From Acinetobacter ursingii DSM 16037 = CIP 107286 (GTDB taxonomy: Bacteria > Pseudomonadota > Gammaproteobacteria > Pseudomonadales > Moraxellaceae): a stretch of 64,000 nucleotides of DNA. A model generated the notes under the pieces. That model did not search any database, was not told where the DNA came from, and saw only the letters and a program-made list of their open reading frames with translations. The DNA lies in contig NZ_KB849716.1 in the NCBI RefSeq assembly GCF_000368825.1, forward strand, positions 11,223 through 75,222, read 5' to 3'. Shown piece by piece: positions 10,555-51,808 of the stretch (its first letter is position 1; every line of letters starts with the position of its first letter). The position numbers and the translations under genes were made by a program.

Positions 10555-10560
10555 AACAAC

Positions 10561-11907: not shown

Positions 11908-11916
11908 TCAATGTTT

Positions 11917-12609
11917 TCAGGTCAGTAATTTAACAATAACGTGAACCAGAAAAGGGCCTGTAATGACCATAAAAATGCCTGCCAATACCATGGTTAAACT
12001 TGCAATGACACCTTCTTGCTTATTGCGCATATATGCTTTACTTGTACCAAAACCATGCGCAGCATTGCCCAGAGAAGCGCCGTTGGCCAAATAAGACTTG
12101 AGCTTTAATCCAGCTAAAATAAGATCACCAAAGATGATACCTACAATGCCAGTCAAAATGGTAAACAAAATCACCAATTCAACCGAACCGCCAATATGTT
12201 GCGTGAGCTCCATCGCAAAAGGCGTAGAAATCGAGCGAGACATGAGACTATAAGTGGTTTGCTGATCAAAATGAAACAAACGCGCCAGATAAAAAGCACT
12301 CAGCATACCTGCCGCCATCCCTACGATAATACCCATACAAATAGACAATGCATGCTGTTTAATGATATCGCGGTATTCATAAATCGGAATCGCAAATGCT
12401 ACTGTAGTTGGTCCTAACATCCACACGATCCAGTGATTATCTTGCATATAGGTGGTATAAGGCACATGGAAAATCATGAGTAGCGCCATAATCAAGCAAG
12501 GAACTAAAATTGCAGGTGCAAAAGGTAAATAAGGCAAACGACGATAAATGGGTTTGGCCAAGATATAACCGAAAAGTGTTCCAACAAAACATATCAAGGC
12601 AATATTCAT
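11917..12609 (-). CDS. LrgB/CidB family membrane protein
   Basis: This 230-residue polytopic inner-membrane protein is partner of the CidA/LrgA holin-like protein encoded just upstream, with which it overlaps by ATGA. Family features are the Pro-rich N terminus (PIYRRLPYLPFAPAILVP), the WMLGPTTVAFAIPIYEY segment near residue 65, and the SRSISTPFAMELTQHIGG region near 125. The pair is linked in other bacteria to control of murein hydrolase activity or export of small carboxylates. Which applies here is not shown by sequence. It is transcribed away from a divergent LysR gene and converges on cobS with no strong hairpin in the 9-bp gap. Confidence 0.88.
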   Translation of the reverse strand: MNIALICFVGTLFGYILAKPIYRRLPYLPFAPAILVPCLIMALLMIFHVPYTTYMQDNHWIVWMLGPTTVAFAIPIYEYRDIIKQHALSICMGIIVGMAAGMLSAFYLARLFHFDQQTTYSLMSRSISTPFAMELTQHIGGSVELVILFTILTGIVGIIFGDLILAGLKLKSYLANGASLGNAAHGFGTSKAYMRNKQEGVIASLTMVLAGIFMVITGPFLVHVIVKLLT

Positions 12610-34095: not shown

Positions 34096-34884
34096 CTATT
34101 TGCCTTGATAAGAAGGTTTGCGTTTTTCTATAAAAGCATTGATCCCTTCGTTTTTGTCTTCAGTAGAAAATAATAATTGGAAAGATTTACGTTCTAAGGT
34201 TAAGCCAGCATTTAATGGCACATCTTCACTCATCAGCGCAACTTCTTTAATTTGCTGCAATGCGATCGGTGGCATTTTGGCAAGACTTTGCGCCATTTTG
34301 ATAGCAGTAGGAATGGTTTGGTCATCTTCGGTCACTTGAGAGACTAGACCCATGATATAGGCTTCTTCTGCTGGAACCATGGCACCTGTCATAATCATGC
34401 GCATCGCATGGAATTTTCCAACCGCACGGAACAGACGCTGTGTACCACCAGCACCTGGCATTAAACCGACTTTAATTTCAGGCTGACCGAAAATGGCACC
34501 TTTACCTGCAATAATAATGTCGCTGTGCATGGCAAGTTCACAACCACCACCAAGAGCATAGCCATTCACAGCCGCAATAACAGGTTTTGGACATTGAGAA
34601 ATCGCGTTCCAATAACGTTCTGTACGGCGTAGCATCATGTCAGTTGAACCAGCTGTTGCCATCTCTTTTAAATCTGCACCAGCTGCAAACACTTCATCAC
34701 CACCTGTAAGAACAATGGCGTGAATATCGTCATTAAAGCTAAGTTCACTAAATGCCTGTGCAAGCTGTTTGCGCACTTCTGTGTTTAACGCATTTTTTGA
34801 TTCAGGGCGGTTGATTTTGACGATTGCTATTTTTTCAATTGAATAATCGATTTCGACGAAATTATCCTTGTTCATATCTGTCAT
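34096..34884 (-). CDS. dcaE: Enoyl-CoA hydratase of the dca cluster
   Basis: The 262-residue crotonase-fold enzyme hydrates trans-2-enoyl-CoA dicarboxylates. The ATG at 34884 is preferred over one 20 codons upstream because AAAGGATG lies just before it. The oxyanion-hole segment is AAGADLKEMA near residue 65, and the two catalytic glutamates are expected in GGGCELAMHSDI (near 110) and GQPEIKVGLMPGAGGTQRL (near 130). It is the first gene of the leftward dca operon and is divergent from dcaA across a 317-bp control region. Confidence 0.86.
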   Translation of the reverse strand: MTDMNKDNFVEIDYSIEKIAIVKINRPESKNALNTEVRKQLAQAFSELSFNDDIHAIVLTGGDEVFAAGADLKEMATAGSTDMMLRRTERYWNAISQCPKPVIAAVNGYALGGGCELAMHSDIIIAGKGAIFGQPEIKVGLMPGAGGTQRLFRAVGKFHAMRMIMTGAMVPAEEAYIMGLVSQVTEDDQTIPTAIKMAQSLAKMPPIALQQIKEVALMSEDVPLNAGLTLERKSFQLLFSTEDKNEGINAFIEKRKPSYQGK

Positions 34885-35201
34885 TTTTACATCCTTTGTT
34901 TCGCATATCAAAACTATATTCCTCATATAATGCTTAATCGACAAAAATTTTCAAGTGTTTTTTATGACATTAATTGATTGAACTTTTTGATAAATCAGTA
35001 AATGCCTGAAAAATAAAGCCTAGATGATACATAATTTCGTTTAACGAAATTTATTTTTAAAAAAGTATTGAAAAAATGGTTTTAATTCTCGTAGTATGAA
35101 ATTAATTTAATGCAGAACTAGATTTTGTGAAACTTTGTGTGCTGACTAATTTGCAAAATAGTTGGTATCAATAGCGAAATATATGAAATGGGAGATCACT
35201 C
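34885..35201. promoter_or_regulatory. dcaE-dcaA divergent control region
   Basis: This 317-bp gap contains no gene. AATTTCGT-TTA-ACGAAATT at 35033-35051 is a perfect palindrome with 8-bp arms around a 3-bp centre, and TTTCGC-ATA-TCAAAA at 34899-34913 is a weaker copy next to the dcaE start. Half sites (GCGAAAT near 35173, TTTGCAAAA near 35150) sit closer to dcaA. The arrangement suggests coordinated control of both dca operons by an IclR-type protein. Confidence 0.65.
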
Positions 35202-36372: not shown

Positions 36373-36405
36373 ACATGAGGCAATTGGATGCCTCATGTGT
36401 TTTTT
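36373..36405 (+). terminator. Terminator between dcaA and the first AAHS carrier
   Basis: ACATGAGGCA and TGCCTCATGT form a perfect 10-bp stem with a 6-base loop, followed by GTTTTTTG. It ends about 17 bp before the next start codon, inside what would otherwise be one operon, so downstream genes depend on read-through or on another promoter. Confidence 0.88.
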
Positions 36406-36421
36406 GTCTGAGGAAATAGAC

Positions 36422-37702
36422 ATGACAACAGATACAATTACATCAAGTAATACAATACAGGCGATTCAAACGCCTAAAAAAATTTGGATTACTGCATTTA
36501 TATTTGCTTTTCTTGCTTTGCTCTGTGACGGTGCTGACTTAGGATTTTTAGCATTAAGTTTGACCAGTCTTAAAACAGAGTTTCATCTTACTGGGGTTCA
36601 AGCCGGGACATTAGGTAGTTTAACTTTATTCGGTTCTGCAATCGGGGGATTGATCGGGGGATGGGCGTGTGACCGTTTTGGGCGCGTACGTATCATCGTA
36701 TTCTTTATTGCTTACTCTTCAATTTTGACCTGTGCTTTAGGCTTTACTCATTCCTTTGAACAATTTGCGCTGGTGCGTGTTTTTGGTTCAATGGGCTTGG
36801 GCGCACTGTATATTGCCTGTAACGTTTTGATGTCTGAAATGGTACCGACCCGACATCGTACGACGGTTCTTGCAGCCTTAATGACAGGTTATACATTAGG
36901 TTCATTACTTGCGACTTTATTGGCTGGGCATATTATTCCAGATCATGGCTGGCGTTATCTTTATTGGTTAGCGATTACACCTATTGTTTTGTCTTTCTTT
37001 ATGTATTTCATGGTGCCTGAACCAGAATCATGGAAAAAATCGCGTCAACTTCGTGCAGCACAAACCGAAGGCGGTATGAAAGCGGTTAAGCGTGAAAATC
37101 CATATCGTGAAATCTTTAAAGAAAAGAAACACGGCATCATGTTTTTGCTTTGGGTGGTGAGTACAGGTGCATTGCAGTTTGGCTATTACGGTGTCAGTAA
37201 CTGGTTACCAGCATATCTTGAATCTGAACTCGGTATCAAATTCAAAGAAATGGCCATGTATATGGTGGGCACATTCATCATTATGATTTTTGCCAAAATC
37301 ATTGCAGGTATGATTGCAGATCGTTTAGGGCGTCGTGCTGTATTTGCTTTTGGAACCATTGGGACTGCTTTATTTATCCCAGTCATTGTTTATCTCAATA
37401 CGCCTACAAACATTCTTTGGTTAATGCTGTTCTTTGGTTTCCTTTACGGAATTCCTTATGCCATCAATGCAACTTATATGACGGAAAGTTTTCCAACGTC
37501 GATTCGTGGTACAGCAGTAGGTGGTGCATACAATGTTGGTAAAGTACTTTCTATTTTCTCTCCATTAACTATCGGTTATTTATCTCAAAGCGGCTCAATT
37601 GGTTTGGGGCTGTTGGTGATGGCCGCTGCATATTTTATCTGTGGTGTGATTCCACTGTTATTCATTAAAGACAGACTATTTAATCCACAAAAAGCGGATT
37701 AA
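36422..37702 (+). CDS. AAHS-family MFS transporter, tandem copy A (dcaK-like)
   Basis: The 426-residue proton symporter has 12 segments. The ATG at 36422 follows GAGGAAATAGAC. AAHS motifs are LLCDGADLGFLALSLTSLK in TM1, GGWACDRFGRVRII after TM2, and ADRLGRRAVFAFG in the TM8-9 loop. ADP1 has a single dcaK at this place; here two similar genes lie in tandem and I cannot say which is the orthologue. It is expected to import a dicarboxylate or related acid. Confidence 0.85.
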   Translation: MTTDTITSSNTIQAIQTPKKIWITAFIFAFLALLCDGADLGFLALSLTSLKTEFHLTGVQAGTLGSLTLFGSAIGGLIGGWACDRFGRVRIIVFFIAYSSILTCALGFTHSFEQFALVRVFGSMGLGALYIACNVLMSEMVPTRHRTTVLAALMTGYTLGSLLATLLAGHIIPDHGWRYLYWLAITPIVLSFFMYFMVPEPESWKKSRQLRAAQTEGGMKAVKRENPYREIFKEKKHGIMFLLWVVSTGALQFGYYGVSNWLPAYLESELGIKFKEMAMYMVGTFIIMIFAKIIAGMIADRLGRRAVFAFGTIGTALFIPVIVYLNTPTNILWLMLFFGFLYGIPYAINATYMTESFPTSIRGTAVGGAYNVGKVLSIFSPLTIGYLSQSGSIGLGLLVMAAAYFICGVIPLLFIKDRLFNPQKAD

Positions 37703-37712
37703 TGGTGCTATT

Positions 37713-37738
37713 CAGACTGGTGATGGATCACCAGTCTG
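37713..37738. repeat. Hairpin between the tandem AAHS genes
   Basis: CAGACTGGTGAT and ATCACCAGTCTG form a perfect 12-bp inverted repeat with a 2-base centre. The downstream T content is low (TATTTAAAA). It may be a weak terminator or a transcript-processing or stability element. Confidence 0.7.
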
Positions 37739-37800
37739 TATTTAAAAATATTCAATATTTAAAAGTACAACAAATTCATCTAAATGAAATAGGTGGCAAT

Positions 37801-39075
37801 ATGAAAATGGAAGTTTTGGGTTTTGAGAAAGATACGGTGATTCAGACGCCAAAAAAAGTCTGGATGACTGCGTTTATATTTTGTTTTTTGGTGTTGCTGT
37901 GTGACGGAGCAGATATTGGGATTTTAGCTTTTACACTAACAAGTTTGAAAGCAGAGTTTGGTTTAACCAGTGTACAGGCAGGAGCACTCGGGAGCTGGTC
38001 TATTTTTGGAATGGCGATTGGTGGTTTGATTGGTGGATGGGCAAGTGATCGCTTTGGACGTGTACGCGTCATTGTCATTGCAACAGCGATGTTTGCCATT
38101 CTTTCTGCATGTACGGGTTTGGCGCAGTCTTATGAACAGATTGTTATTTTAAGAACCATTACCTGTCTGGGTTTAGGATCACTGTATATTGCATGTAATA
38201 CGCTTATGTCGGAACTGGTCCCGACTAAATATAGAACCACTGTTCTGGCAACGCTCATGACTGGTTATACCTTAGGTTCATTGGTCATCACGGCTTTATC
38301 TGGATGGATTATTCCTGAGTTTGGCTGGCGAATGCTGTATTTCATTACCATTATTCCAATTGTATTTTCCATTTTGATGTTCTTTCTTGTTCCAGAGCCT
38401 GCCTCATGGAAAAAAGCACGTGCACTCAAGTTGGCAAACCCGCAAGCAGGTAAAGCACAAAAACTCGAAAATCCTTATGTCGCATTATTTAAAGATAAAC
38501 AACACGGCAAGATGTTGATGTTATGGACATTTAGTTCTGGATTTTTATTGTTCGGTTATTTTGGCGTAAGTAACTGGCTGCCTTCATATTTAGAAGCAGA
38601 ATTGGGAATCAAGTTTAAAGAAATGGCAATTTATATGATTGGGACTTTCCTGACCATGATGTTTGCCAAAGTGATCGCTGGTTTTGTCGCAGACAGAATT
38701 GGCCGTCGAATTGTATTTGCATTTGGAACAATGGGGACTGCGCTATTTATTCCAGTCGTTGTTTATTTCCATACGGCTGAAAATATTGGCTGGTTAATGC
38801 TAATTTTTGGATTTTTATACGGGATTCCTTATGCCATCAATGCCACCTATTTAACTGAAAGTTTTCCGACTTCAATTCGGGGAACTGCGGTAGGTGGTGC
38901 ATTTAATATTGGAAGAATTGGTGCAATTTTTGCCCCGATCGCCATTGGTTATTTGGCAACCCATAACTCGATTGGTGCAGGTTTGTTGTTAATGGGAGTG
39001 GCCTACTTTTTATGTGGTTTGATTCCAACCTTATTTATCAAAGACAGATTATACGATCCGCAAAAGGCTGAGTAA
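37801..39075 (+). CDS. AAHS-family MFS transporter, tandem copy B (dcaK-like)
   Basis: The 424-residue protein is homologous along its whole length to copy A and to the carrier at 22943. The ATG at 37801 is chosen because AGGTGG lies 5 bases before it; an upstream reading from 37702 runs through the intergenic hairpin. Motifs are LLCDGADIGILAFTLTSLK, GGWASDRFGRVRVIV and ADRIGRRIVFAFG. It is followed by the CoA-transferase genes dcaIJ after 51 bp. Confidence 0.85.
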   Translation: MKMEVLGFEKDTVIQTPKKVWMTAFIFCFLVLLCDGADIGILAFTLTSLKAEFGLTSVQAGALGSWSIFGMAIGGLIGGWASDRFGRVRVIVIATAMFAILSACTGLAQSYEQIVILRTITCLGLGSLYIACNTLMSELVPTKYRTTVLATLMTGYTLGSLVITALSGWIIPEFGWRMLYFITIIPIVFSILMFFLVPEPASWKKARALKLANPQAGKAQKLENPYVALFKDKQHGKMLMLWTFSSGFLLFGYFGVSNWLPSYLEAELGIKFKEMAIYMIGTFLTMMFAKVIAGFVADRIGRRIVFAFGTMGTALFIPVVVYFHTAENIGWLMLIFGFLYGIPYAINATYLTESFPTSIRGTAVGGAFNIGRIGAIFAPIAIGYLATHNSIGAGLLLMGVAYFLCGLIPTLFIKDRLYDPQKAE

Positions 39076-40544: not shown

Positions 40545-41873
40545 ATGAAAAAACTTATTTTAGCTGCGGCTTGTGCCACGGCTTCTGGGGCGCTTTTTGC
40601 AAATTCTGTAGAAAGTACGACTGAGCAACGAATAAATGCGCTTGAAGCAGAATTACAGCGTTTAAAAACTGAGCTTGAGCTGCAAAAAACCAATCAGCAA
40701 AAAATATTGGCTACCAATGCCGAATTAGCTGAGAAAAAAACCGTGCAATCTTCTGATTCTTCAGCAAAAACAGATAAGGCCATTCCACCTTCATGGGTTA
40801 CTTGGACTGATAATGTTAAGGTCTACGGAATTGCACGTTTAGATGCGGCTGTTGATTTTCAATCCTCACCAGATACGGGGGGGCGTACAACAAGCAGTAT
40901 TTATAAAGCACCTTTTGAAAATGATAAACGTGCCAATCATCCGCGTTCAGATGCGATGATTAATGCCAGCCGTTTAGGTGTTTACTTCACTAGCCCAGAT
41001 AAAAAAGTGACGGGTAATATTGAAGCCGATTTCTTTGATAGCTCGACAATGGGAACTGGCGATGGCAAGTTCCGTATTCGACATGCGTTCTTTACTTATA
41101 AAGACTGGACGTTTGGTCAGACTTGGTCACTGATGTCAAATATGGAAACCCGTACAGAATCAGTCGACTATACCCAATTTATGGGAACCTCATATACACG
41201 TTTGCCACAAGTACGCTATGACTGGAAAATTGATAACAATCATGATTTAAAAGTTGCACTTGAATATACAAGCTCACGGGTTTCTGCTTTTCCATCTTTA
41301 ACAGGACGATATACCTATAAAGAAGGTCCGTTGCTTGTGCTTGCCCAAGGTTTCGTCAACGAAAAATCAGTCGATGTCGGCAGAGATGATGTTAAAAAAG
41401 TCAGTTGGGGAGCTGGTGGTGGTTTGAAATATCAAATTACGCCAAAACAGTCCTTACAGGCAAACTATCAGCATATTGTTGGTGATCAGAAATTTATGCC
41501 ATATACCACTCAAAATGGTTTGGCCAATGCTGCAAGCTTAAATGCATCAGGCGATTTCTCATTAAATAAAGACAAAACTGATTTGGTGATGAATACACTG
41601 GATTCATTTAATATTGGTTATACCTATAAGTTTAATGAGCAATGGCGTACCAACTGGTCTGCTTCAATCTTTAAATATGATGACAGTAGTGACTATGCTG
41701 AATTAAATCAGGATGCCAATGATCGTTTAACCGATTATGCAGCTAACTTATTTTATAGTCCAACAGCGCAAATGGATTTTGGTGTGGAATATCATCTAGG
41801 TGAGCGCAAAGTATTTGATGGCAGAACGGCTGACATTTCGCGTGTCAACTTTGTATCGATGTATAAATTTTAA
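40545..41873 (+). CDS. dcaP: DcaP-type trimeric outer-membrane porin
   Basis: The 442-residue porin is expected to carry dicarboxylic acids across the outer membrane. The signal peptide (MKKLILAAACATASGALFA) is followed by a predicted coiled coil (about 25-65, EQRINALEAELQRLKTELEL) characteristic of DcaP, then a 16-strand-type barrel ending in the aromatic residue F (FVSMYKF). Rich alternating aromatic/polar strands such as GVEYHLGERKVF are visible. It is the last gene of the rightward dca operon. Confidence 0.92.
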   Translation: MKKLILAAACATASGALFANSVESTTEQRINALEAELQRLKTELELQKTNQQKILATNAELAEKKTVQSSDSSAKTDKAIPPSWVTWTDNVKVYGIARLDAAVDFQSSPDTGGRTTSSIYKAPFENDKRANHPRSDAMINASRLGVYFTSPDKKVTGNIEADFFDSSTMGTGDGKFRIRHAFFTYKDWTFGQTWSLMSNMETRTESVDYTQFMGTSYTRLPQVRYDWKIDNNHDLKVALEYTSSRVSAFPSLTGRYTYKEGPLLVLAQGFVNEKSVDVGRDDVKKVSWGAGGGLKYQITPKQSLQANYQHIVGDQKFMPYTTQNGLANAASLNASGDFSLNKDKTDLVMNTLDSFNIGYTYKFNEQWRTNWSASIFKYDDSSDYAELNQDANDRLTDYAANLFYSPTAQMDFGVEYHLGERKVFDGRTADISRVNFVSMYKF

Positions 41874-41893: not shown

Positions 41894-43114
41894 ATGTCTA
41901 ACATGATTCAATCCAGTACAGAACATATGGATATGTCTAAAAGTCTGGTATTTATACTTGCAATGACTTGCGGTATTTGTGCTGGATCGAATTATTATAA
42001 TCAACCACTGATTTATTCAATCGCAGATGCTCTGGGAGTCAATCCAGATCAAGCCGCACTGGTGATCGTAATTGGTCAACTGTCTTATGCGCTAGGTTTG
42101 TTTGTATTGGTTCCTATGGGAGATTTTTTTGAAAAAAGGTCATATATTGTTTTACTGATGATCTGTACAGGTTTGGCTCAAATGGGGCTTTCTTTTAGCC
42201 CCAATTTGACGACTTTGTATAGCTTGACCTTTCTTTCCACATTCTTTTCAGTTTCTACTCAGGTTCTCGTTCCATTTGCCGCAGGTCTAGCAACACCTCA
42301 AAAAAGCCCACAAGTCGTGGGAACCTTGATGAGTGGCTTGTTCATGGGAATTTTGTTAGCCCGTTCGATTGCAGGACTGATTTCGACGATCTGGACGTGG
42401 CATGCTGTTTATTTATTAAGTGGTTTTATTATTCTTCTGTTTGCCTCGATTGTCTGGTTTAAACTTCCAGTTGCTAAAAAGACAGTCAAATTAAAGGTCT
42501 GGCAAATCTACGCATCATTATTTACTTTAGCAGTTCATGAACCACATCTCATACGTCGCGGATTAGTGGGCGGTATTGGTTTTGGTATTTTGGCGCTGAT
42601 TTTTACCACCATGACATTCTTACTGGCCAATGCACCTTATCATTTTAATGACTTTCAAATAGGACTCTTTGGAATAGTTGGTCTGGCAGGAGTATTTGCA
42701 ACACCGTGGGCAGGTAAAAAAATTGCACATCAGCAGGAAAATATCACGGCTCTGATTAGTCTGAGTTTGCTTATTCTGGCTTGGATTCCCTTATTTTTTG
42801 CGCAGAAATTTTTGATCTTATATGCAGTTGGTGTGATTTTAGCCTACTTTGGCTTATCTGCTTTACATGTACTTAATCAAAATCTGGTCTATCGTATTTC
42901 TGCACAAGCACGATCTCGAATTAATTCAATTTATATGACCCTGTATTTTGGTGGAGCAGCATTAGGTTCTTTTATTGCAGTTTATACATGGAAACATTCT
43001 GGTTGGATTGCCTGTGCCAGTATTGGTTTGGGCATGGCAATTATTAGCTTTGTAATTGATCGTTATGATTTTTATAAAATGAGACAACCTCATGACAGAA
43101 GATTAAGTCACTAA
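41894..43114 (+). CDS. MFS transporter, YnfM/drug-efflux-like, copy 2
   Basis: This 406-residue, 12-segment carrier is paralogous to the one at 26867. Matching blocks are TCGICAGSNYYNQPLIYSIADALG at the N terminus, VPMGDFFEKRSYI after TM2, and NQNLVYRISAQARSRINSIYMTLYF near residue 318. It lies 20 bp after dcaP and may be cotranscribed. The last codons form the left arm of a bidirectional terminator. The substrate is unknown. Confidence 0.83.
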   Translation: MSNMIQSSTEHMDMSKSLVFILAMTCGICAGSNYYNQPLIYSIADALGVNPDQAALVIVIGQLSYALGLFVLVPMGDFFEKRSYIVLLMICTGLAQMGLSFSPNLTTLYSLTFLSTFFSVSTQVLVPFAAGLATPQKSPQVVGTLMSGLFMGILLARSIAGLISTIWTWHAVYLLSGFIILLFASIVWFKLPVAKKTVKLKVWQIYASLFTLAVHEPHLIRRGLVGGIGFGILALIFTTMTFLLANAPYHFNDFQIGLFGIVGLAGVFATPWAGKKIAHQQENITALISLSLLILAWIPLFFAQKFLILYAVGVILAYFGLSALHVLNQNLVYRISAQARSRINSIYMTLYFGGAALGSFIAVYTWKHSGWIACASIGLGMAIISFVIDRYDFYKMRQPHDRRLSH

Positions 43115-43127
43115 GACTTAATCTTCT
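43097..43127. terminator. Bidirectional terminator overlapping the MFS stop codon
   Basis: AGAAGATTAAGTC and GACTTAATCTTCT form a perfect 13-bp stem with loop ACTAA, which contains the TAA stop of the MFS gene. It serves the convergent MFS and thioesterase genes. No strong T tract follows on either side. Confidence 0.75.
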
Positions 43128-43133
43128 AAGGGT

Positions 43134-43556
43134 TTATTTGCGGATGATCATAAATGTCGCTGAAGCAAATGCATAAATTTTTCCATTGTCATCCACAATT
43201 TTACCTTCAGTGGTAATGATATTTCGACCTGCATTAATCAATTCACCATGCGCATAGTAAGCCGTATCTGTTTGCATTGGCCGAATCATTTTGACATTTA
43301 AATCAATCGTTCCGTAACCAACATTGGCTTCAAGTACGGAATGCGCTGCACCGCCCGTTGCTGTATCTAACGCAGTCGCGCAAAAACCACCATGTACACC
43401 CCCTTGAACATTTAAATGAGTGTTATTGGGTGTCACTTTATAGATCACTTTACCTTTTGAGGCTTCAATCAACTGCATGGGAAGCGTTTGTGCCATTGGG
43501 GAAGACGATACTTCGCCATTTTTGAGTGCGGTTAAAAACTCTAAACCTGTTTGCAT
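43134..43556 (-). CDS. PaaI-family hotdog thioesterase
   Basis: This 140-residue acyl-CoA thioesterase has the family motif GGVHGGFCATALDTATGGAAHS near residues 50-71, with the conserved HGG and the aspartate expected to act in catalysis. It probably releases CoA from dead-end intermediates of the neighbouring pathways. It has its own promoter region facing the large acyl-CoA dehydrogenase gene. Confidence 0.85.
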   Translation of the reverse strand: MQTGLEFLTALKNGEVSSSPMAQTLPMQLIEASKGKVIYKVTPNNTHLNVQGGVHGGFCATALDTATGGAAHSVLEANVGYGTIDLNVKMIRPMQTDTAYYAHGELINAGRNIITTEGKIVDDNGKIYAFASATFMIIRK

Positions 43557-43885
43557 GATTCATCCTTGCTGTAAAACATGAAAAATACCTTACTATAAAA
43601 ATAGGATTTTCGGAATAAAATTTTGCATAACAAAAATTAAATTTCTATTAAATAAATAGGTTTAATTTAAAAAATTCATAACATTTTGTATTTTATTATT
43701 TAATTATATTTAAATTTATTTTTGGACTAAGAACCATGAAAAATTAAAGTCAATAAAATTGAAATTTGCAGAAATAAATTTTGCAATATGGAATTATTTT
43801 AGATATTTTTAACCTATGAGGAGAATAAATTTTGAGAAACTTAAAACATGCTTTTAAGTTGAATAGAAAATCAAGGAAATAGGAT
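43557..43885. promoter_or_regulatory. Very AT-rich divergent control region
   Basis: This 329-bp gap contains no gene. TTTTGC-ATA-ACAAAA at 43621-43635 matches the recurrent 6-3-6 palindrome with 5 of 6 arm positions complementary. A second TTTTGCAAT at about 43780 looks like a half site. Runs of A/T from 43630 to 43730 may be bent DNA. Confidence 0.5.
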
Positions 43886-45688
43886 ATGCCTGTATATAAA
43901 GCCCCACAGCGTGATATGCAATTCGTTTTACACGAGATGTTAGAAGTTGAAGAAAACTATCAACAGTTTCCAAAATATGCAGATCAATTTAGTCGCGATT
44001 TGATCAATCAGTATTTAGAAGCCGCAGCCGATTTTTGTGAAAATGAAATTGCTCCGATCAACCAAAGTGGTGATCATGAAGGCTGTCATTTTGAACACGG
44101 CAAAGTCACCACGCCAAAAGGTTTTAAAGAAGCCTATCAGAAATATGTCGAATTAGGTTTTACCTCACTGACGGCTGATCCAGTTTATGGGGGGCAGGGT
44201 ATGCCTACTTTGTTGCGGATCGCTATTTCTGAAATGTTATGCGCGTCGAACTGGTCGTGGGCAATGTATCAGGGACTTTCACATGGTGCGATGCGGACAT
44301 TGGAGCATCATGGAACTGAACAACAAAAGCAAACTTTCTTGACCAAATTGATAGCAGGAATCTGGACAGGCACCATGTGTTTAACCGAATCGCATGCAGG
44401 TTCAGATTTAGGTTTGATTCGGACTAAGGCAGAACCTCAGGCAGATGGCAGTTACGCGATCACAGGCGAGAAAATCTTTATCTCAGCAGGTGAGCACGAT
44501 CTGGCTGAAAATATTGTGCATATTGTTCTGGCTCGTTTGCCTAATGCACCATTAGGGACCAAAGGCATTACGTTATTTATTGTGCCCAAGTTTAATGTTG
44601 ATGACTCCGGTAACATTCAAGATCGTAATCAGGTGGTGTGTAGCGCGATTGAACACAAAATGGGAATTCATGGCAATGCGACCTGCGTGATGAATTTCGA
44701 TGCGGCCAAAGGTTATCTGATTGGCCCTGAAAATCGTGGTTTAAATTGCATGTTTACCTTTATGAATACTGCGCGTATTGGTACAGCAGTACAAGGCTTG
44801 GCAGCATCTGAAATTGCTTTTCAAGGGGCGCTCGGCTATGCCAAAGAACGTTTAGCCATGCGCGCACTCACAGGCGCTAAACAACCTGCGCAAAATGCAG
44901 ATCCAATTATTGTACATCCCGCTGTGCGTAGTATGTTGATGACCCAAAAAGCATTTGCTGAAGGTGGACGTGCCTTGGCATATTTTCTGGCACAACACGC
45001 AGATATTGTTGAAAGCTCAAGCAATGAAGCGCAAAAAAAATTATCAGATGAATTACTGGCATTTTTGACACCGATTGCCAAAGCATTTTTAACTGAATCA
45101 GGCAATGAATCTGCCAAACATGGTGTTCAGATTTTTGGTGGTCATGGTTTTATAGTTGAACATGGCATGGAACAAATTGTTCGAGATGCACGTATTTCTA
45201 CGCTTTATGAAGGCACCACAGAAATTCAGTCACTCGATTTACTGGCGCGTAAAGTACTCAAATCAGAAAGCAAGTTGCTTAAAAACATGACTGATTTAAT
45301 TGATCAGTTTGTTGAGGAAAATCAGTCCAATTCAAGTTTAAAAACTTATCTGGATCAATTGTCTAAACTTAAAAACGAATGGCAGGAGATTACCAAGCAT
45401 ATTGCAGTTAAAGCACAGCATAATCCAGAGGAAATCGGAGCAGCCTCAGTCGATTATTTATATTACTCAAGTTATATCGTTTTTGCCTATTTGTGGGCGC
45501 GTATGGCAAAAGTTGCGCAACAAAAACTGGATCAAGGCACCACTGAACAGAAGTTCTATCAGGCTAAACTTAAAACTGCACAATTCTTTTATGACAAGTT
45601 ATTAAATCGAACTCAGCAGCATGCAGCCTCGATTAAAACGGGCGCTGAATCAGTGATGGCGCTAGATGCAGAAGATTTCTTTTTTTAA
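43886..45688 (+). CDS. Large acyl-CoA dehydrogenase (600 aa, DmdC-like branch)
   Basis: This FAD enzyme belongs to the roughly 600-residue acyl-CoA dehydrogenase branch that carries an extra C-terminal helical domain. The opening MPVYKAPQRDMQFVLHEMLE is typical of that branch, which includes 3-methylmercaptopropionyl-CoA dehydrogenase (DmdC) but also many enzymes of unknown substrate. Core motifs are MCLTESHAGSDLGLIRTKA near residue 172, GEKIFISAGEHD near 202, QIFGGHGFIVEHGMEQIVRDARI near 417, and LYEGTTEIQSLDL near 445. It starts a four-gene operon. I cannot assign the substrate. Confidence 0.85.
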   Translation: MPVYKAPQRDMQFVLHEMLEVEENYQQFPKYADQFSRDLINQYLEAAADFCENEIAPINQSGDHEGCHFEHGKVTTPKGFKEAYQKYVELGFTSLTADPVYGGQGMPTLLRIAISEMLCASNWSWAMYQGLSHGAMRTLEHHGTEQQKQTFLTKLIAGIWTGTMCLTESHAGSDLGLIRTKAEPQADGSYAITGEKIFISAGEHDLAENIVHIVLARLPNAPLGTKGITLFIVPKFNVDDSGNIQDRNQVVCSAIEHKMGIHGNATCVMNFDAAKGYLIGPENRGLNCMFTFMNTARIGTAVQGLAASEIAFQGALGYAKERLAMRALTGAKQPAQNADPIIVHPAVRSMLMTQKAFAEGGRALAYFLAQHADIVESSSNEAQKKLSDELLAFLTPIAKAFLTESGNESAKHGVQIFGGHGFIVEHGMEQIVRDARISTLYEGTTEIQSLDLLARKVLKSESKLLKNMTDLIDQFVEENQSNSSLKTYLDQLSKLKNEWQEITKHIAVKAQHNPEEIGAASVDYLYYSSYIVFAYLWARMAKVAQQKLDQGTTEQKFYQAKLKTAQFFYDKLLNRTQQHAASIKTGAESVMALDAEDFFF

Positions 45689-45748
45689 TCAATGATAAAC
45701 GAGGAGAAGGCGAACATAAAACCATCTCCTCAAACAAGAGTATTGAAT

Positions 45749-46537
45749 ATGGATTTTCAACATATTTTGACACATGTCGAGCAACGTGTTGCCTATTTAA
45801 CGCTGAATCGACCTGAAGTGCTCAATAGTTTTAATGAACAGATGCATCAGGAAGTGGCTCAGATTTTGGCCGAATGGGAAACCTCTGAACAGATCAAAGT
45901 GATTGTGATTTCAGGTATGGGCAAAGGCTTTTGTGCAGGGCAAGATTTATCTGCGCGAAAACCTGAAGTCATCGAAGATCCCAACTATGATGCTGGTGCA
46001 TCTTTAGATCGTTATTACAATCCTTTGATTTTAAAAATTGCCAATATGCCTAAAGTGGTTGTTGCAGCAGTCAATGGCGTTGCGGCTGGTGCTGGTGCCA
46101 ATATAGCATTGGCATGCGATATTGTGGTTGCCAAGCAGTCCGCTTCATTTATACAGTCATTTTCTAAAGTAGGTTTAATTCCTGATGCAGGTGGGACTTG
46201 GATTTTACCGCGTTTGGTGGGTCATGCCAGAGCAAAAGCGCTGATGTTGCTTGGAAATAAACTATCGGTCGATAAGGCCTTAGAATGGGGCATGATTTGG
46301 GAGGTTTATCCAGATGATGCTTTTCAGCAGCAAGTCAATGCATTGGCTGAGACTTTAGCGATGCAACCTTCGTCATTCATGAAACTCATTAAAAAAGCCT
46401 TAAATCTTTCGCAGCAAAACGCCCTACAACAACAGCTTGATCTTGAGCGAGATTTGCAACGTGAGGCAGGCAAATCATCAAATTATAAAGAAGGCGTGCA
46501 GGCATTTATGCAAAAACGTCAGCCCAACTTCGATTAA
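45749..46537 (+). CDS. Enoyl-CoA hydratase/isomerase, PaaG-like
   Basis: This 262-residue crotonase-fold protein is clearly similar to PaaG: an opening like MDFQHILTHVEQRVAYLTLNRP, the oxyanion block GFCAGQDLSARK, RYYNPLILKIANMPK, and GVAAGAGANIALACDIVVAK followed by SFSKVGLIPDAGGTWILPRL. The PaaG similarity begins exactly at the ATG at 45749, so this start is chosen over the ATG at 45692, although the stronger GAGGAGAAGG lies before neither at ideal spacing. It is probably a ring-acyl or enoyl-CoA isomerase/hydratase for the operon substrate; no other paa genes are present. Confidence 0.82.
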   Translation: MDFQHILTHVEQRVAYLTLNRPEVLNSFNEQMHQEVAQILAEWETSEQIKVIVISGMGKGFCAGQDLSARKPEVIEDPNYDAGASLDRYYNPLILKIANMPKVVVAAVNGVAAGAGANIALACDIVVAKQSASFIQSFSKVGLIPDAGGTWILPRLVGHARAKALMLLGNKLSVDKALEWGMIWEVYPDDAFQQQVNALAETLAMQPSSFMKLIKKALNLSQQNALQQQLDLERDLQREAGKSSNYKEGVQAFMQKRQPNFD

Positions 46538-46582
46538 ACTTAAAACGATTTGTGACACCCAATACATGCAAAGGATGCAATC

Positions 46583-47341
46583 ATGTCAAGTTTACAACAA
46601 CAAGTTTCAGCCAATGAATGGGCTGCCAGATGTCAATTAGCAGCTTTATATCGTTTAATTGCGTATTATCGCATGACCGATTTAATCGACACCCATATTA
46701 GTTTACGTGTACCCGATGAGGAAGGTCATTTTTTAATTAACCAATATGGTATTCCTTTTGAAAAAATGACGGCGTCTCATTTAGTAAAAATCGACTATAA
46801 CGGCAATATTATCGATGAACATGATCAGGGAAAAATGGTCAATGTGGCAGGATTTGTCATTCATTCAGCCATTCATTCGGCACGTCAAGATTTACATTGT
46901 GTCATTCATACCCATACCGCTGATGGAATTGCGGTATCTGCACAAAAGCAGGGATTATTGCCGATCTCGCAACATGCCTTAAAGTTTTATAACAAAATCA
47001 GCTATCACGACTATGAAGGCGTTGCCTTGTTAACCGAAGAGCGCGAACGTTTAGTTCAGGATTTTGGGCAAAATCGTGTCATGATTTTGCGTAATCATGG
47101 TTTGTTGGCAGCAGGTGATAGTGTGCAGCGAGCTTTCCATGAAATTTACTTTTTAGAACGCGCTTGTCAGGCACAAATCAAAGCACTAGCTGGTGGTTGT
47201 GAGTTAAATATTCCGAGTCAACAGGTTTGTGAACATACTTCAGCACAATTTGAATCCAAAGGCATTGAGCGAATTATTGCAAATGCATGGCATGCTGCAT
47301 TGTCATTGATTGAACAACAAAAAGAGGAATACTGTTCATGA
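46583..47341 (+). CDS. Class II aldolase/adducin-family protein
   Basis: This 252-residue protein has the class II aldolase fold. Expected metal ligands are the histidines in VIHTHTADGIAVS near residue 113-115 and ILRNHGLLAAG near 175. The start follows AAAGGATGCAATC. The family includes fuculose-phosphate aldolase, epimerases and decarboxylases; the exact reaction is not evident. It overlaps the next gene by ATGA, coupling it to a 2-hydroxyacid dehydrogenase. Confidence 0.8.
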   Translation: MSSLQQQVSANEWAARCQLAALYRLIAYYRMTDLIDTHISLRVPDEEGHFLINQYGIPFEKMTASHLVKIDYNGNIIDEHDQGKMVNVAGFVIHSAIHSARQDLHCVIHTHTADGIAVSAQKQGLLPISQHALKFYNKISYHDYEGVALLTEERERLVQDFGQNRVMILRNHGLLAAGDSVQRAFHEIYFLERACQAQIKALAGGCELNIPSQQVCEHTSAQFESKGIERIIANAWHAALSLIEQQKEEYCS

Positions 47342-48261
47342 TCGTGATTGCAACCACTGTTCCCAAAGTACAAAAATGGCTTGAAGATGCATTGGCTGAA
47401 TATGCACCGCAAGAGGCTTATTGTCTGGCACATAGCGAACAAGCTCAACAGGCAACTACCGCAATTTCGTGGTTTCCAGATCTGGATTATCTGGAAACAT
47501 TGCCAAATCTAAAGCTGATTCATTCTATGGCGGCGGGTGTTGAGCATTTAAATCTAAAACGCATAGGTGACCGTTATGCGGTATGCCGTGTCGTCGATGA
47601 ATCTCATCAAAAAGGCATGTACGATTATTTGCAATGGTGCGTGCTGTACTATCAGCGTTTTTTTGATGTTTTGATCGCTCAGCAACTACAGCAACGCTGG
47701 AAACAACCGCCACAAAAAACCAGTGCAGATGTCAAAATCGGCATTATGGGCTTAGGGCAAATGGGCGGTTATATTGCTGAAAAATTTGCAAAGCTAGGTT
47801 ATCAGGTTTCAGGTTGGTCGCGTAGTTTAAAGCAAATTGAAGGGGTAACTTGCTTTGCAGGTGATGCACAAAGACAGGATTTTCTTGCTCAAAGTGAAAT
47901 TTTGATTAACTTGCTTCCTTTGACTGAAGATAATGTTGGTCTATTAAATACTGAATTGTTTCAACAGCTTCCTAAAGGAGCCTGTATAATTAATTGTGGT
48001 CGTGGACAACATCTAAACGAACAGGATTTAATTGCAGCACTGGATTCAGAGCAATTACGTGGTGCAATTTTAGATGTATTTGCAAAAGAACCTTTGGCAC
48101 AAGATCACGTTTTTTGGCAACATCCTAAAGTGTTGGTTACGCCCCATGTTGCTTCACACGCACCTTGGTCGGCTGTCATTGGACAAATTCTTGAAAATGA
48201 TCATCGTGTGCAGCAGGGCTTAGCTTTAGTCAATGAAGTGAATGTCATGAAAGGCTATTAA
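47338..48261 (+). CDS. D-isomer 2-hydroxyacid dehydrogenase (GhrA-like)
   Basis: The 307-residue NAD(P)-dependent enzyme reduces 2-oxoacids such as glyoxylate or hydroxypyruvate, or oxidises the hydroxyacid. The cofactor loop GIMGLGQMGGYIAEKF is near residue 137, the catalytic arginine is in NCGRGQHLNEQDL near 220, the glutamate in DVFAKEPL near 250, and the histidine in VTPHVASHAPW near 272. It resembles GhrA. It is the last gene of the operon, followed by a strong convergent terminator. Confidence 0.85.
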   Translation: MIVIATTVPKVQKWLEDALAEYAPQEAYCLAHSEQAQQATTAISWFPDLDYLETLPNLKLIHSMAAGVEHLNLKRIGDRYAVCRVVDESHQKGMYDYLQWCVLYYQRFFDVLIAQQLQQRWKQPPQKTSADVKIGIMGLGQMGGYIAEKFAKLGYQVSGWSRSLKQIEGVTCFAGDAQRQDFLAQSEILINLLPLTEDNVGLLNTELFQQLPKGACIINCGRGQHLNEQDLIAALDSEQLRGAILDVFAKEPLAQDHVFWQHPKVLVTPHVASHAPWSAVIGQILENDHRVQQGLALVNEVNVMKGY

Positions 48262-48281
48262 ATTTGGCTGTTATCACAATG

Positions 48282-48314
48282 AAATAAGATGAATGTTAAG
48301 CATTCATCTTATTT
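48282..48314. terminator. Bidirectional terminator
   Basis: AAATAAGATGAATG and CATTCATCTTATTT form a perfect 14-bp stem with a 5-base loop between convergent genes. The A/T-rich outer ends supply T residues in both directions. Confidence 0.8.
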
Positions 48315-48333
48315 AAGAGCCATTTTACAAGCT

Positions 48334-49227
48334 TTATGTCATTTCCACGGTTTTAGATTGCGCTAAAATATCTGTAGCTTGTTCAATAAAATGTTTGAGA
48401 TTACCACTCCAGCTTTGTGGTTTATTGGCGATGAGATACGTATTAATTTCACCAATTTGCTCATCGATATCAAAAAACTGTAGCGTATCTTTATAGGATG
48501 ACTTTTCAATATATGAACGTGGCAATATGGCGTAACCCATACCCAAATGCACACAACTTAAGATGGCATCCAGATTGCCCATTTCAGTGAGTTGTGACGG
48601 GGGTAAATCATAACCCTGTAAAAAAGACTCAATGCTTTTTCGATAAAAACAACCCTGACGGATCGCAAGAAAAGGCGTATTTAATAAAACCTTCTTATCT
48701 GGAAATGCATGGACTTCTTTAGGACAAATCAAAACTAAATGTTCCGTCCATGCCAGAAGATTATAAAAATCAGGCAGCACTTGCGAACTGGCAATAAAAG
48801 CACAGTCAAGATCGCCCTTATAAACGCGGTCAATCAATTCACGTGTTGTACCCGTATTTAAGTGAAGTCTTAATTCAGGCAGTTGTGAAAGTACGTCTTT
48901 AAATAACTGGGGTAGACGCGTTGCAGCAGTGGTTTCCATACTCCCAATTTTTAATGGAACGTCATGGCATAATGTTTGATCAGAAAAATGAAATTTAGCT
49001 TGTTGATGTAGCTCAATCATTTGCTCTGCATAATGGCGTAACTGTTGACCTGCACTGGTGGGGCGAATCGGAGATTGACGCGACAATAATTCGCAGTTTA
49101 ATTCATCTTCAAGCTTTTTTATATGATTAGTAATATTCGATTGCACCGTATGCAAATGCGTTGCTGCATGGGAAAAACTACCACATTCCACGACTTTTAA
49201 AAAAATTTCCAAAGACTTTAATTGCAT
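48334..49227 (-). CDS. LysR-family regulator
   Basis: The 297-residue regulator has an N-terminal helix-turn-helix (residues 1-60; SFSHAATHLHTVQSNITNHIKKLEDEL) and an effector domain from about residue 90. It is divergent from the YbfB-type MFS gene and the 144-bp gap holds a LysR-type box TATCT-N7-AGATA at 49278. It probably controls that transporter and itself. The effector is unknown. Confidence 0.86.
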   Translation of the reverse strand: MQLKSLEIFLKVVECGSFSHAATHLHTVQSNITNHIKKLEDELNCELLSRQSPIRPTSAGQQLRHYAEQMIELHQQAKFHFSDQTLCHDVPLKIGSMETTAATRLPQLFKDVLSQLPELRLHLNTGTTRELIDRVYKGDLDCAFIASSQVLPDFYNLLAWTEHLVLICPKEVHAFPDKKVLLNTPFLAIRQGCFYRKSIESFLQGYDLPPSQLTEMGNLDAILSCVHLGMGYAILPRSYIEKSSYKDTLQFFDIDEQIGEINTYLIANKPQSWSGNLKHFIEQATDILAQSKTVEMT

Positions 49228-49277
49228 TATTTTTCTCTCAGAGTTTCATCTCAAAACTTAAACTATCGCAAAAATAC

Positions 49278-49294
49278 TATCTCAAAATAAGATA
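49278..49294. promoter_or_regulatory. LysR-type binding box
   Basis: TATCT-CAAAATA-AGATA contains ATC-N9-GAT, the T-N11-A form recognised by LysR proteins. It lies 51 bp from the lysR start and 78 bp from the MFS start. Confidence 0.55.
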
Positions 49295-49371
49295 CTAGCT
49301 ATCACTATAAATCATTTTACCAGATATAAATAATCCGCTTTAATCTATTTAACTTAAACAGAGATTGGTCA

Positions 49372-50568
49372 ATGCAAAATACATCCAGATTGTTTTGGGT
49401 GGCATTTCTATCAACGTGCCTAGGGATTGGGTTGTTTAGATTTTCATATACCTCCTTGATGCCACTTTTAGTTGAACAAAAATGGTTTACTGCATCATTT
49501 GCCAGTTATTTAAGTAGTGCAAATTTATTGGGCTATCTCATCGGGGCATTATTGGCCCATGCTGCCTCGCGTTATATCCAAGATAAAAAATTAATTAGTA
49601 TCAGTGCATTTCTAGGCTCTTTAAGCCTTTTACTTTGTGCAATTCATGGTTTACCTGAGTTTTTATATATTGTTTTTCGATTATTTTCAGGAATTGCAGG
49701 TGCGACTTTAATGGTGCTTGCCCCAAGCTACGCGCTAAGACGGGTAGAGCCTGAAATACGACAGCGGCTCAGTATGGTGGCATTTAGTGGGATAGGAGCG
49801 GGGGTAGTGATTTCAACATTTATTGTGCCTTATGCTGCCAAAATCAATGTTGGATTAGGATGGTTATTTCTGGGTGTTCTAAGCTTGATCTTTAGTTTTG
49901 TCATTTTTATTGGTTTACAAGGGCAACAAAAGACGTTACAGACTCAGCAGACATACCAGTCAGGCATTTCTTTAGCACCCAAATACGTTCAAATGGCTGG
50001 GCTAATCATTGCTGCTTACGCTTTAAGTGCAATTGCCTATATTCCACATAGTTTGTTTTGGATCGATTTTATACAACATGAATTACATCAAAGTGTTCAA
50101 TTTGCCAATCAGCAGTGGGCATTTTATGGAATAGGCTCGATGTTAGGAGCAGTATTTGCTTTTTATTGCAGTAAACATTGGCAGATTTCGGGTGCTTTAT
50201 GGCGTTGTTATTTACTTTATAGCCTTGCCATTTTTATTCCAGTTTATTTTCACCATTTTTATAGCTTAGCACTTTCTTCTTTTTTAACAGGTTTATTAAA
50301 TCCTGCTGTGGTTTCCCTTAGTTCAAGTGCTTTATTGAACATATTAGGTACTCAAAATCACCAATCCGCATGGAGTATTGCAACCGCAGCATTTGCAACG
50401 GCACAGCTTGTAGGTGGTTTGCTGATTAGCTTTTTACATACAAGTGGTGTCATTTACCCACATTTGTTTTTTCTTGGCGCAATGATGATGAGCCTTGGCT
50501 TTGTGTGTAGCGTATGTTTTTACATGATTCAGAAACTAAATTCGAGTCAACTGAAGGGGGAAGGTTAA
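49372..50568 (+). CDS. YbfB/YjiJ-family MFS transporter
   Basis: This 398-residue, 12-segment carrier opens with FWVAFLSTCLGIGLFRFSYTSLMPLLVE, in which GIGxxRFxYTxLxPxL is the YbfB/YjiJ signature. It has no known substrate. The TAA stop shares its last base with the ATG of a 46-residue membrane protein, so the two are translationally coupled. Confidence 0.85.
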   Translation: MQNTSRLFWVAFLSTCLGIGLFRFSYTSLMPLLVEQKWFTASFASYLSSANLLGYLIGALLAHAASRYIQDKKLISISAFLGSLSLLLCAIHGLPEFLYIVFRLFSGIAGATLMVLAPSYALRRVEPEIRQRLSMVAFSGIGAGVVISTFIVPYAAKINVGLGWLFLGVLSLIFSFVIFIGLQGQQKTLQTQQTYQSGISLAPKYVQMAGLIIAAYALSAIAYIPHSLFWIDFIQHELHQSVQFANQQWAFYGIGSMLGAVFAFYCSKHWQISGALWRCYLLYSLAIFIPVYFHHFYSLALSSFLTGLLNPAVVSLSSSALLNILGTQNHQSAWSIATAAFATAQLVGGLLISFLHTSGVIYPHLFFLGAMMMSLGFVCSVCFYMIQKLNSSQLKGEG

Positions 50569-50953: not shown

Positions 50954-51808
50954 TTATAAAATATTGCGTAACTCTCTGGCTGTTTCCTGTAATAAAGGCA
51001 AAATATGCTGGACTAAGTATTCTTTAGTGGTTCGCATCGTGGGAGAAACAATATTAAGCGCAGCGACAACACGCGACTGTTGTCCATAAATAGGTACAGC
51101 TAAGGCATGCACACCCAGCTCATGTTCTTCACAGGAATAACACCAGCCTTGTTCTTTAATTTCACATAAAAGTTTTAAAAAATCCTGATTATTGGTATGC
51201 GTATATTTGGTTAGGCGTTGTAGTGGATGTTGTGATAACCATTCCTGTTGTTCATGATCATCTAGATAGGCTAAAAGAATTTTTCCTGCTGAGGTTGCAT
51301 GTGCAGGCAAGCGATTTCCCAAATGTAGACCATAGGGATTTACCCGATCTGTTTGTTGGTGTGCAGCACTTCTGGCAATGGTAATCGCCTCGTAGCCATC
51401 AAGTACCATGACCGAATAGATGAGAGAAGTTTGTGTTGTCAATAAGTTAAGTAAAGGCTGAGAAATTTTTGGAAGATGTGCACCACCAAGATAAGAGCCT
51501 GAAAATTTTAATATTTTAGGTGTTAAGTAAAAGTAATGCCCATCGGATTCAAGATAACCGAGATACTCTAAAGTAAGTAAATGGCGTCGTGCAGCTGCCC
51601 GAGTCATCCCTGTTTTTTCAGCTGCCATGGTAATATTTAATCGGTGGCGATCCGTACCAAAACTGTCTAAAATCGCCATGCCTTTACCAATTCCAGCAAC
51701 AAAATCTTCATGACGAATCGTTTTTTTGTTACTTGAATTGTGAAGAATTTTTTCTTCTTTCTCTATTTTTTTATCCATATCTACTGACATTCCTAGCATT
51801 TGATACAT
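50954..51808 (-). CDS. pcaU: IclR-family activator of the pca genes
   Basis: PcaU activates the pca-qui operon with protocatechuate and represses itself. The protein of up to 284 residues has a winged helix (about 38-100; NITMAAEKTGMTRAAARRHLLTLEYLGYL) and an effector domain with NPYGLHLGNRLPAHATSAGKILLA near 158 and CYSCEEHELGVHALAVPIYG near 220. It is divergent from pcaI with the three-repeat operator between them, the ADP1 arrangement. The start is uncertain: an internal ATG at 51778 follows AGGA and would give 274 residues. It is less similar to the two IclR paralogues of the dca region than they are to each other. Confidence 0.88.
   Translation of the reverse strand: MYQMLGMSVDMDKKIEKEEKILHNSSNKKTIRHEDFVAGIGKGMAILDSFGTDRHRLNITMAAEKTGMTRAAARRHLLTLEYLGYLESDGHYFYLTPKILKFSGSYLGGAHLPKISQPLLNLLTTQTSLIYSVMVLDGYEAITIARSAAHQQTDRVNPYGLHLGNRLPAHATSAGKILLAYLDDHEQQEWLSQHPLQRLTKYTHTNNQDFLKLLCEIKEQGWCYSCEEHELGVHALAVPIYGQQSRVVAALNIVSPTMRTTKEYLVQHILPLLQETARELRNIL

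Follow-up and report, generated by a model that had tools for sequence, protein, structure and literature searches.

A conserved four-gene set in the Acinetobacter dca–pca island: a possible link between long-chain acyl-CoA oxidation and a putative aldolase-fold decarboxylation unit

Four co-directional genes lie between dicarboxylic acid (dca) and pca catabolic genes in Acinetobacter ursingii DSM 16037, and the question they raise is which reactions they might encode together. The window, a stretch of 64,000 nucleotides from contig NZ_KB849716.1 of this 3.54 Mb Acinetobacter genome, holds them on the + strand with dcaP on the left and pcaU on the right. They encode a FadE1-type acyl-CoA dehydrogenase (ACAD, 43886–45688, 600 amino acids (aa)), a predicted PaaG-type enoyl-CoA isomerase (ECH, 45749–46537), a class II aldolase/adducin-like protein that appears to be a three-His metal enzyme (ALD, 46583–47341, 252 aa) and a GhrA-like D-2-hydroxyacid dehydrogenase (GHR, 47338–48261, 307 aa). 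An earlier note on this DNA had described an operon of four close or overlapping genes without a recognised pathway, in which an acyl-CoA could be dehydrogenated and hydrated before the aldolase split it, giving glyoxylate or a 2-oxo acid for GHR to reduce. The gene layout was confirmed, with ALD and GHR sharing 4 nt (ATGA, 47338–47341), and the operon-like set was found to be a conserved one adjoining catabolic genes. The reading favoured here, at a probability of roughly 0.4, is that the operon would join a long-chain acyl-CoA oxidation pair to a separately inherited ALD–GHR unit for oxidative decarboxylation. It is built on observed gene content, conservation, active-site residues and kinship.

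ALD matched the model PRK07044 with 346 bits, and its active-site columns were compared with those of E. coli FucA, for which Glu73, Asn29, Thr43, Ser71, Ser72, Tyr113, Gly132, the His triad and Gly44 are listed as notable residues, Glu73 being the catalytic one (PMC5216522; this and the other papers are cited from those parts of them that were available). H92, H94, H155, H77 and G44 of FucA are kept in ALD, whereas N29, T43, S71, S72, E73, Y113 and G132 are all replaced, so that only the metal-coordinating His triad (H109, H111 and H172 of ALD) and Gly44 are retained from the listed residues. Among 17 ALD relatives chosen for alignment, all 17 carried the triad and all 17 had Gly in the Glu73 column. 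The profile of these relatives scored 3ocr at 336 bits, adducins at 233 and 186, 4xxf at 162, TqaM at 140, 9n43 at 128 and NovR at 118, followed by 8il8, a pyruvic oxime dioxygenase (POD), at 95, two entries named Aldolase at 95 and 88, and FucA-type aldolases at no more than 48 bits; 4xxf, named fuculose-1-phosphate aldolase, and 9n43 are known only by their deposited names. The closest characterised enzymes to ALD are accordingly found among O2-dependent iron enzymes, namely TqaM, NovR and POD. TqaM is identical to ALD at H38, G90, H94, H109, H111, Q130 and H172 and differs at Tyr55 and Ala89, as read off the alignment, and catalyses the oxidative decarboxylation of a 2R-hydroxy acid (PMC11880133). 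NovR/CloR uses a 3-His iron and O2 to decarboxylate oxidatively twice, first a 2-oxo acid and then a mandelate (PMC13111500). POD, which acts on pyruvic oxime, likewise has Fe(II) with three His and has lost the FucA residues; its authors suggested that class II aldolase-type genes of unassigned function may be oxygenases (PMC5216522, PMC11841055). The aldol cleavage proposed in the earlier note is not supported, since the catalytic Glu of FucA and most of its substrate residues are missing from ALD and the nearest characterised relatives of ALD use Fe and O2. Judged by these residues, ALD is probably not an aldolase, its class II aldolase name resting on the fold.

A reaction independent of O2 is an unlikely alternative. 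ALD would then be a metal-dependent non-oxidative lyase or decarboxylase, comparable to HMPDdc (2z7b), which uses Mn(II). Its substrate would be an acid of the 2-hydroxy or beta-keto type, and GHR would be its partner reductase. The fold does include O2-independent decarboxylases, among them 2z7b, which reached 41 bits in the ALD profile (role according to the available part of PMC11841055); furthermore, a 3,4-dihydroxyphthalate decarboxylase model gave 50 bits on ALD, and an RraA-like gene lies near ALD–GHR on the plasmid pKP121-2. These decarboxylase matches are nevertheless far below those of TqaM, NovR and POD, a comparison made for 2z7b within the ALD profile.

The partner enzyme, GHR, had 4n18 as its best PDB match (304 bits) and scored 203.7 bits against the GhrA equivalog model PRK15469, half of the cut-off of 403. 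R222, E251 and H270, the conserved Arg, Glu and His of this family, were invariant in seven aligned homologues. Across the genus, 149 Acinetobacter genomes were searched with each of the four proteins. ALD was matched in 55 genomes and GHR in 31 (E <= 1e-30 for both). Co-occurrence was counted at identities of at least 66% for ALD and at least 50% for GHR, which mostly leaves out weaker matches, the only ones present in 15 of the 55 ALD-bearing and 3 of the 31 GHR-bearing genomes. At these thresholds ALD stood directly ahead of GHR on the same strand in 26 of the 30 GHR places, and GHR followed 26 of the 43 ALD places, which were distributed over 40 genomes. The two genes occurred together far more often than expected by chance: 27 genomes had both, 13 had only ALD, one had only GHR and 108 had neither (Fisher p 8.5e-19, uncorrected for kinship). 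The closest named loci for GHR belong to Acinetobacter sp. WU_MDCI_Axc73, A. guerrae, A. ihumii and Acinetobacter sp. S54. In Acinetobacter sp. A47 the GHR match falls into two pieces (10001–10920 of locus L093), as if the assembly held an interrupted gene. A further Acinetobacter genome (G016) carries a lone ALD copy, 82% identical, with no GHR beside it (11675–12463 of locus L034). This copy lies behind a group of genes that resembles a paa operon.

The pair also travels apart from the other two genes. Other Acinetobacter clusters combine ALD–GHR with a transporter gene, which we take to be of the MHS type, an M20 carbamoylase-like hydrolase and a hydrolase of the histone-deacetylase fold. 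Outside the genus, ALD and GHR adjoin in four loci (L113, L143, L145 and L146), Paraburkholderia sp. PGU19 being among the carriers. In the Klebsiella pneumoniae plasmid pKP121-2 (L143) it is accompanied by MFS, Zn-dependent hydrolase, RraA, RidA and LysR genes, and the cluster lies between IS elements near the heat-shock genes hsp20/clpK on a plasmid typed as conjugative; in this context, the ALD–GHR module has moved. L145, a K. pneumoniae record of 5.4 Mb listed as a plasmid, and L113 share a 2-oxoglutarate (2OG)-Fe oxygenase and transporter genes next to the pair, and L113 additionally contains an agmatinase-family gene. The closest match of the L113 oxygenase is 9ovh, deposited as ethylene/succinate-forming enzyme. 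Homologues of GHR reaching E <= 1e-55 were present in 14 of 368 other gammaproteobacterial genomes. Thirteen of these 14 regions were examined, the GHR open reading frame (ORF) was recovered in 10 (not in L117–L119), and ALD adjoined it in one of the 10 (L113).

The first half of the operon points to fatty-acyl-CoA chemistry. The best PDB matches of ACAD were 8pns and 8pu5 (830 and 827 bits), compared with 619 and 616 bits for 8r1e and 8png, and the former pair was assigned to FadE1 because 8pu5 has Ala in place of the catalytic Glu. In FadE1 of Pseudomonas aeruginosa, Gly129 and Ala295 lie at the tunnel with Gln302 alongside, together with Glu441, while FadE2 has Met130, Glu296 and Gln303 (PMC11890623). 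The aligned residues of ACAD are Gly130, Ala296, Gln303 and the catalytic Glu442, which reproduce the FadE1 long-chain selectivity set, and because of these FadE1-like residues ACAD should take long-chain acyl-CoA. Trees were drawn with FastTree under midpoint or single-outgroup rooting from 41 (ACAD), 33 (ECH), 76 (ALD) and 49 (GHR) distinct sequences. The operon ACADs of both gene orders described below formed one clade apart from the housekeeping FadE1 (support 0.999), of which the window's ACAD is a paralogue.

ECH scored 360.3 bits against the PaaG model TIGR02280, above its cut-off of 345.15, and 300 bits against PaaG in PDB 4fzw. In crotonases, hydration depends on two catalytic glutamates; ECH has Asn and Phe at these columns, with Asp in its IPDAGG motif, while both Glu are present in the hydratase encoded elsewhere in the window (34096–34944). 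The same Asn, Phe and Asp were found in the PaaG of another Acinetobacter and in the A. lwoffii-type protein. With both hydratase glutamates replaced, ECH should be a Delta3/Delta2 double-bond isomerase, a prediction from its active-site columns that leaves the hydration step put forward earlier unsupported. In the tree, ECH fell into a clade of its own (0.998) apart from the Acinetobacter PaaG (0.996), and the ECHs of the two gene orders did not group together in the tree drawn. A role in the phenylacetate pathway is hardly likely and was rejected, as paaA (TIGR02156) had no match in the genome of the window. A route for dimethylsulfoniopropionate (DMSP) through DmdC and DmdD was likewise considered and rejected: ACAD is nearer to FadE1 (830 bits) than to 6ijc (574 bits), which we take to be DmdC, and ECH is of the isomerase type and not a DmdD-type hydratase. 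The reading frame of ECH is open from 45692 (281 aa as listed); its start is probably at 45749 (residue 20 of that ORF), since stops break the preceding stretch in two close relatives (G095 and G076) and the alignment with many homologues begins no earlier than about residue 18–20. With this start, ACAD and ECH are 60 nt apart and ECH and ALD 45 nt.

These residues bear directly on the route of the earlier note, in which dehydrogenation, hydration and aldol cleavage would deliver the substrate of GHR. Family names and gene order speak for it, and so does the recurrence of the four genes in two arrangements. It must be regarded as improbable, however: neither hydratase glutamate is present in ECH, the aldolase Glu and most of the substrate residues of FucA are replaced in ALD, and ALD–GHR is also found without the operon ACAD and ECH.

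The earlier note's own check, a search for the set in other genomes, was borne out, for all four genes lay together in 19 of the 149 Acinetobacter genomes, in two gene orders. Taken singly, the PaaG-like protein was matched in 82 genomes at E <= 1e-50, ordinary PaaG included, and ACAD in 141 at E <= 1e-150, housekeeping FadE1 included. The order of the window, with a thioesterase gene on the opposite strand followed by ACAD, ECH, ALD and GHR, occurred in 6 genomes. The other 13 showed the A. lwoffii order, in which the opposed thioesterase gene is followed by ALD, GHR, ECH, one more gene, ACAD and further genes. These further genes were typed in one locus (L063) as nitronate-monooxygenase-family, alpha/beta hydrolase and flavin monooxygenase-like, and the next gene is presumably acyl-CoA ligase-like, judging by its start. 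Among the genomes of this order, G033 (L061, L085) has an ECH match that is incomplete or split in two, and the ACAD of G025 (L087) runs into a contig end. The thioesterase of the window, a hotdog-fold protein divergent from ACAD (43134–43556, - strand; TIGR00369, 60 bits with a cut-off of 37), travels with the set: of 27 loci compared, 18 have it next to ACAD or ALD.

The slot behind ACAD is variable. An ACAD with 77% identity or more was present in 22 genomes. ALD–GHR followed it in 8 of them, of which 6 had ECH there as well and 2 did not. In 10 of the other 14 loci that were viewed, the next gene was directly of the pcaU type in 2, ECH alone in 1 and a gene of 267–284 aa in 7, one of which was tested and found to be a TesB-like thioesterase. 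The A. courvalinii locus (L076) carries ECH. The same chromosomal site thus holds, depending on the species, ACAD without the other three, ACAD with ECH, ACAD with ALD and GHR, or all four. A four-step route in its strictly obligatory form is not supported, given these partial sets and the ALD–GHR pairs lacking the operon ACAD and ECH.

Such variability raises the possibility, which we consider unlikely, that the halves share a transcript only, with ACAD and ECH serving fatty-acid oxidation and ALD and GHR an unrelated acid. A catabolic island in which cassettes accumulate would then have brought them together. The changing content of the slot (pcaU, the 267–284 aa gene, ECH, ALD–GHR or ECH–ALD–GHR) and the presence of ALD–GHR in other clusters fit this view. 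On the other hand, all five types of gene (for the thioesterase, ALD, GHR, PaaG-like protein and ACAD) also lie together in the A. lwoffii lineage, in another order and beside dca-like genes, and the ACADs of both lineages belong to the one clade that is separate from housekeeping FadE1.

The favoured reading, an oxidation pair joined to a decarboxylation unit, can be set out as two units, in which we infer the metal, the use of O2, the direction, the substrate, the order of steps and co-transcription. ACAD and ECH would provide accessory long-chain fatty-acyl-CoA oxidation through a dehydrogenase of the FadE1 type and a Delta3/Delta2 isomerase of the PaaG type, with the hotdog thioesterase beside them. 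GHR would convert a 2-oxo acid to its (2R)-hydroxy counterpart or back, and so set the oxidation state. ALD, as a three-His metalloenzyme, would most likely carry out Fe(II)- and O2-dependent oxidative decarboxylation of that acid with removal of C1, a proposal made because of its kinship with TqaM and NovR. The product, one carbon shorter, or its CoA ester, would then be passed on to ACAD or to beta-oxidation through the adjacent dca genes. 2-Hydroxy or 2-oxo acids would thereby join beta-oxidation, beside the long-chain ACAD, the isomerase, the thioesterase and the dca genes. The two halves of the operon may meet only at the shorter acid used by the dca genes, or not at all. In its widest form, ALD–GHR would be a mobile alpha-oxidation module, with GHR making or consuming the (2R)-hydroxy acid and ALD, as an iron oxygenase, removing one carbon with O2; it would have been inserted into four or more distinct catabolic clusters of bacteria, here feeding 2-hydroxy or 2-oxo acids into beta-oxidation; this is a tentative extension, possible but on the unlikely side.

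Several observations weigh against the favoured reading. TqaM and NovR reach only about 35–42% of the bits of the uncharacterised 3ocr in the ALD profile and are outscored there by adducin, a cytoskeletal protein, and the structure model of ALD is poor (mean pLDDT 63). The substrate is the weakest link: GhrA-like enzymes are known for small acids, which fits badly with a long-chain ACAD, and the other clusters suggest polar solutes. As those clusters carry carbamoylase-like, deacetylase-fold or agmatinase-family hydrolases, the substrate of ALD–GHR may be polar or depend on the cluster. ALD does not need GHR, because no GHR of at least 50% identity was present in 13 of the 40 genomes with a close ALD. 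Moreover, the partners may have been exchanged, since their identities do not run parallel (ALD 41% and GHR 51% in L113; ALD 66% and GHR 43% in pKP121-2).

The flanks of the operon were examined for signals. The operator-like palindrome described upstream is present as a 9-bp inverted repeat in the ACAD leader (AACTTAAAA-catgc-TTTTAAGTT, 43838–43860), but its sequence was found in only 3 of the 20 ACAD leaders compared, the window counted in. By eye, roughly 13 of the remaining 17 form some other small hairpin at this place, and the mean folding z over the 20 leaders is only -0.68. Given the lack of sequence conservation and this low mean z, there is no evidence for an operator role. A putative small leader hairpin at about -50 to -20 occurs in most of the 20 species loci (43826–43885 in the window; L071–L078, L093 and L133–L142), mostly with a different sequence. 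A promoter scan of 42000–50000 found no sigma-70-like site on the + strand in the ACAD leader and returned 12 matches in all, fewer than in shuffled sequence (mean 23.8). Downstream, the strong terminator that had been reported corresponds to a hairpin with perfect 14-bp arms (48282–48295 and 48301–48314; -23.3 kcal/mol, z -5.9) between the convergent GHR and LysR genes. This terminator-like hairpin has no separate T-tract, for which reason the consensus terminator scan did not list it.

The surrounding island begins with genes for 3-oxoadipyl-CoA thiolase, 3-hydroxyacyl-CoA dehydrogenase, enoyl-CoA hydratase, acyl-CoA dehydrogenase and CoA-transferase, followed by the porin gene dcaP (40545–41873, + strand, PF19577). 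An MFS gene, the - strand hotdog thioesterase gene and ACAD–ECH–ALD–GHR come next, and then a LysR-family regulator (48334–49227, - strand), a YbfB-type MFS transporter (49372–50568, + strand, PF06779), an IclR regulator of the PcaR/PcaU/PobR type (50954–51808, - strand; TIGR02431, 329 bits with a cut-off of 285), named pcaU by position, and the pca genes. Being divergent from the MFS gene and convergent with the operon, the LysR gene may serve the transporter rather than the operon. Two related dcaK-like MFS genes stand in tandem at 36395–37702 and 37702–39075, where the stretches viewed from other species have either one such gene or two, and a transposase-like ORF of 402 aa, judged by eye, lies near the left edge of the window (361–1569).

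Many genomic genes carry the label "class II aldolase/adducin family", and the recurring pair of ALD with a dehydrogenase offers a compact, testable case. If the favoured reading is true, the common aldolase label would be wrong for the ALD branch, and Acinetobacter islands would hold an unrecognised acid-shortening step. To our knowledge, Fe/O2 members of this fold come only from natural-product synthesis and heterotrophic nitrification; a mobile ALD–GHR module, if real, would give the fold a bacterial catabolic role. In the literature searched by title and abstract on the gene combination, Fe/O2 class II aldolase-like enzymes, FadE and the dca/pca/qui island, which covers few subscription papers, neither the operon nor the ALD–GHR pair is described. 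Within that coverage the earlier statement that the combination has no recognised pathway still holds, and the component families are already known.

Each part of the operon can be set against a known system. ACAD shares its length, catalytic Glu and long-chain selectivity residues with FadE1 of P. aeruginosa (PA0506) but falls into a clade separate from the Acinetobacter housekeeping FadE1 and lies beside dca genes. The operon stands just behind dcaP in the island for dca dicarboxylic-acid catabolism of Acinetobacter, yet its four genes are additional to that system and are without mention in the available parts of PMC4213383 and PMC12338516. ECH exceeds the model cut-off for PaaG of the phenylacetate catabolon and has the same replacements of the hydratase glutamates, whereas its clade is its own and its genome lacks paaA. 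GHR belongs to the family of the glyoxylate/hydroxypyruvate reductase GhrA and has the conserved Arg, Glu and His; it differs in reaching half of the curated score (204 of 403) and in being genetically tied to ALD. Finally, ALD has the fold family and the His triad in common with TqaM, NovR, CloR and POD, and the FucA catalytic Glu is lost in ALD as it is in TqaM, by alignment, and in POD, as reported in the available part of PMC5216522 (NovR is not in the alignment). Those enzymes act in natural-product synthesis or nitrification, whereas ALD lies in catabolic islands and has a dehydrogenase as its partner.

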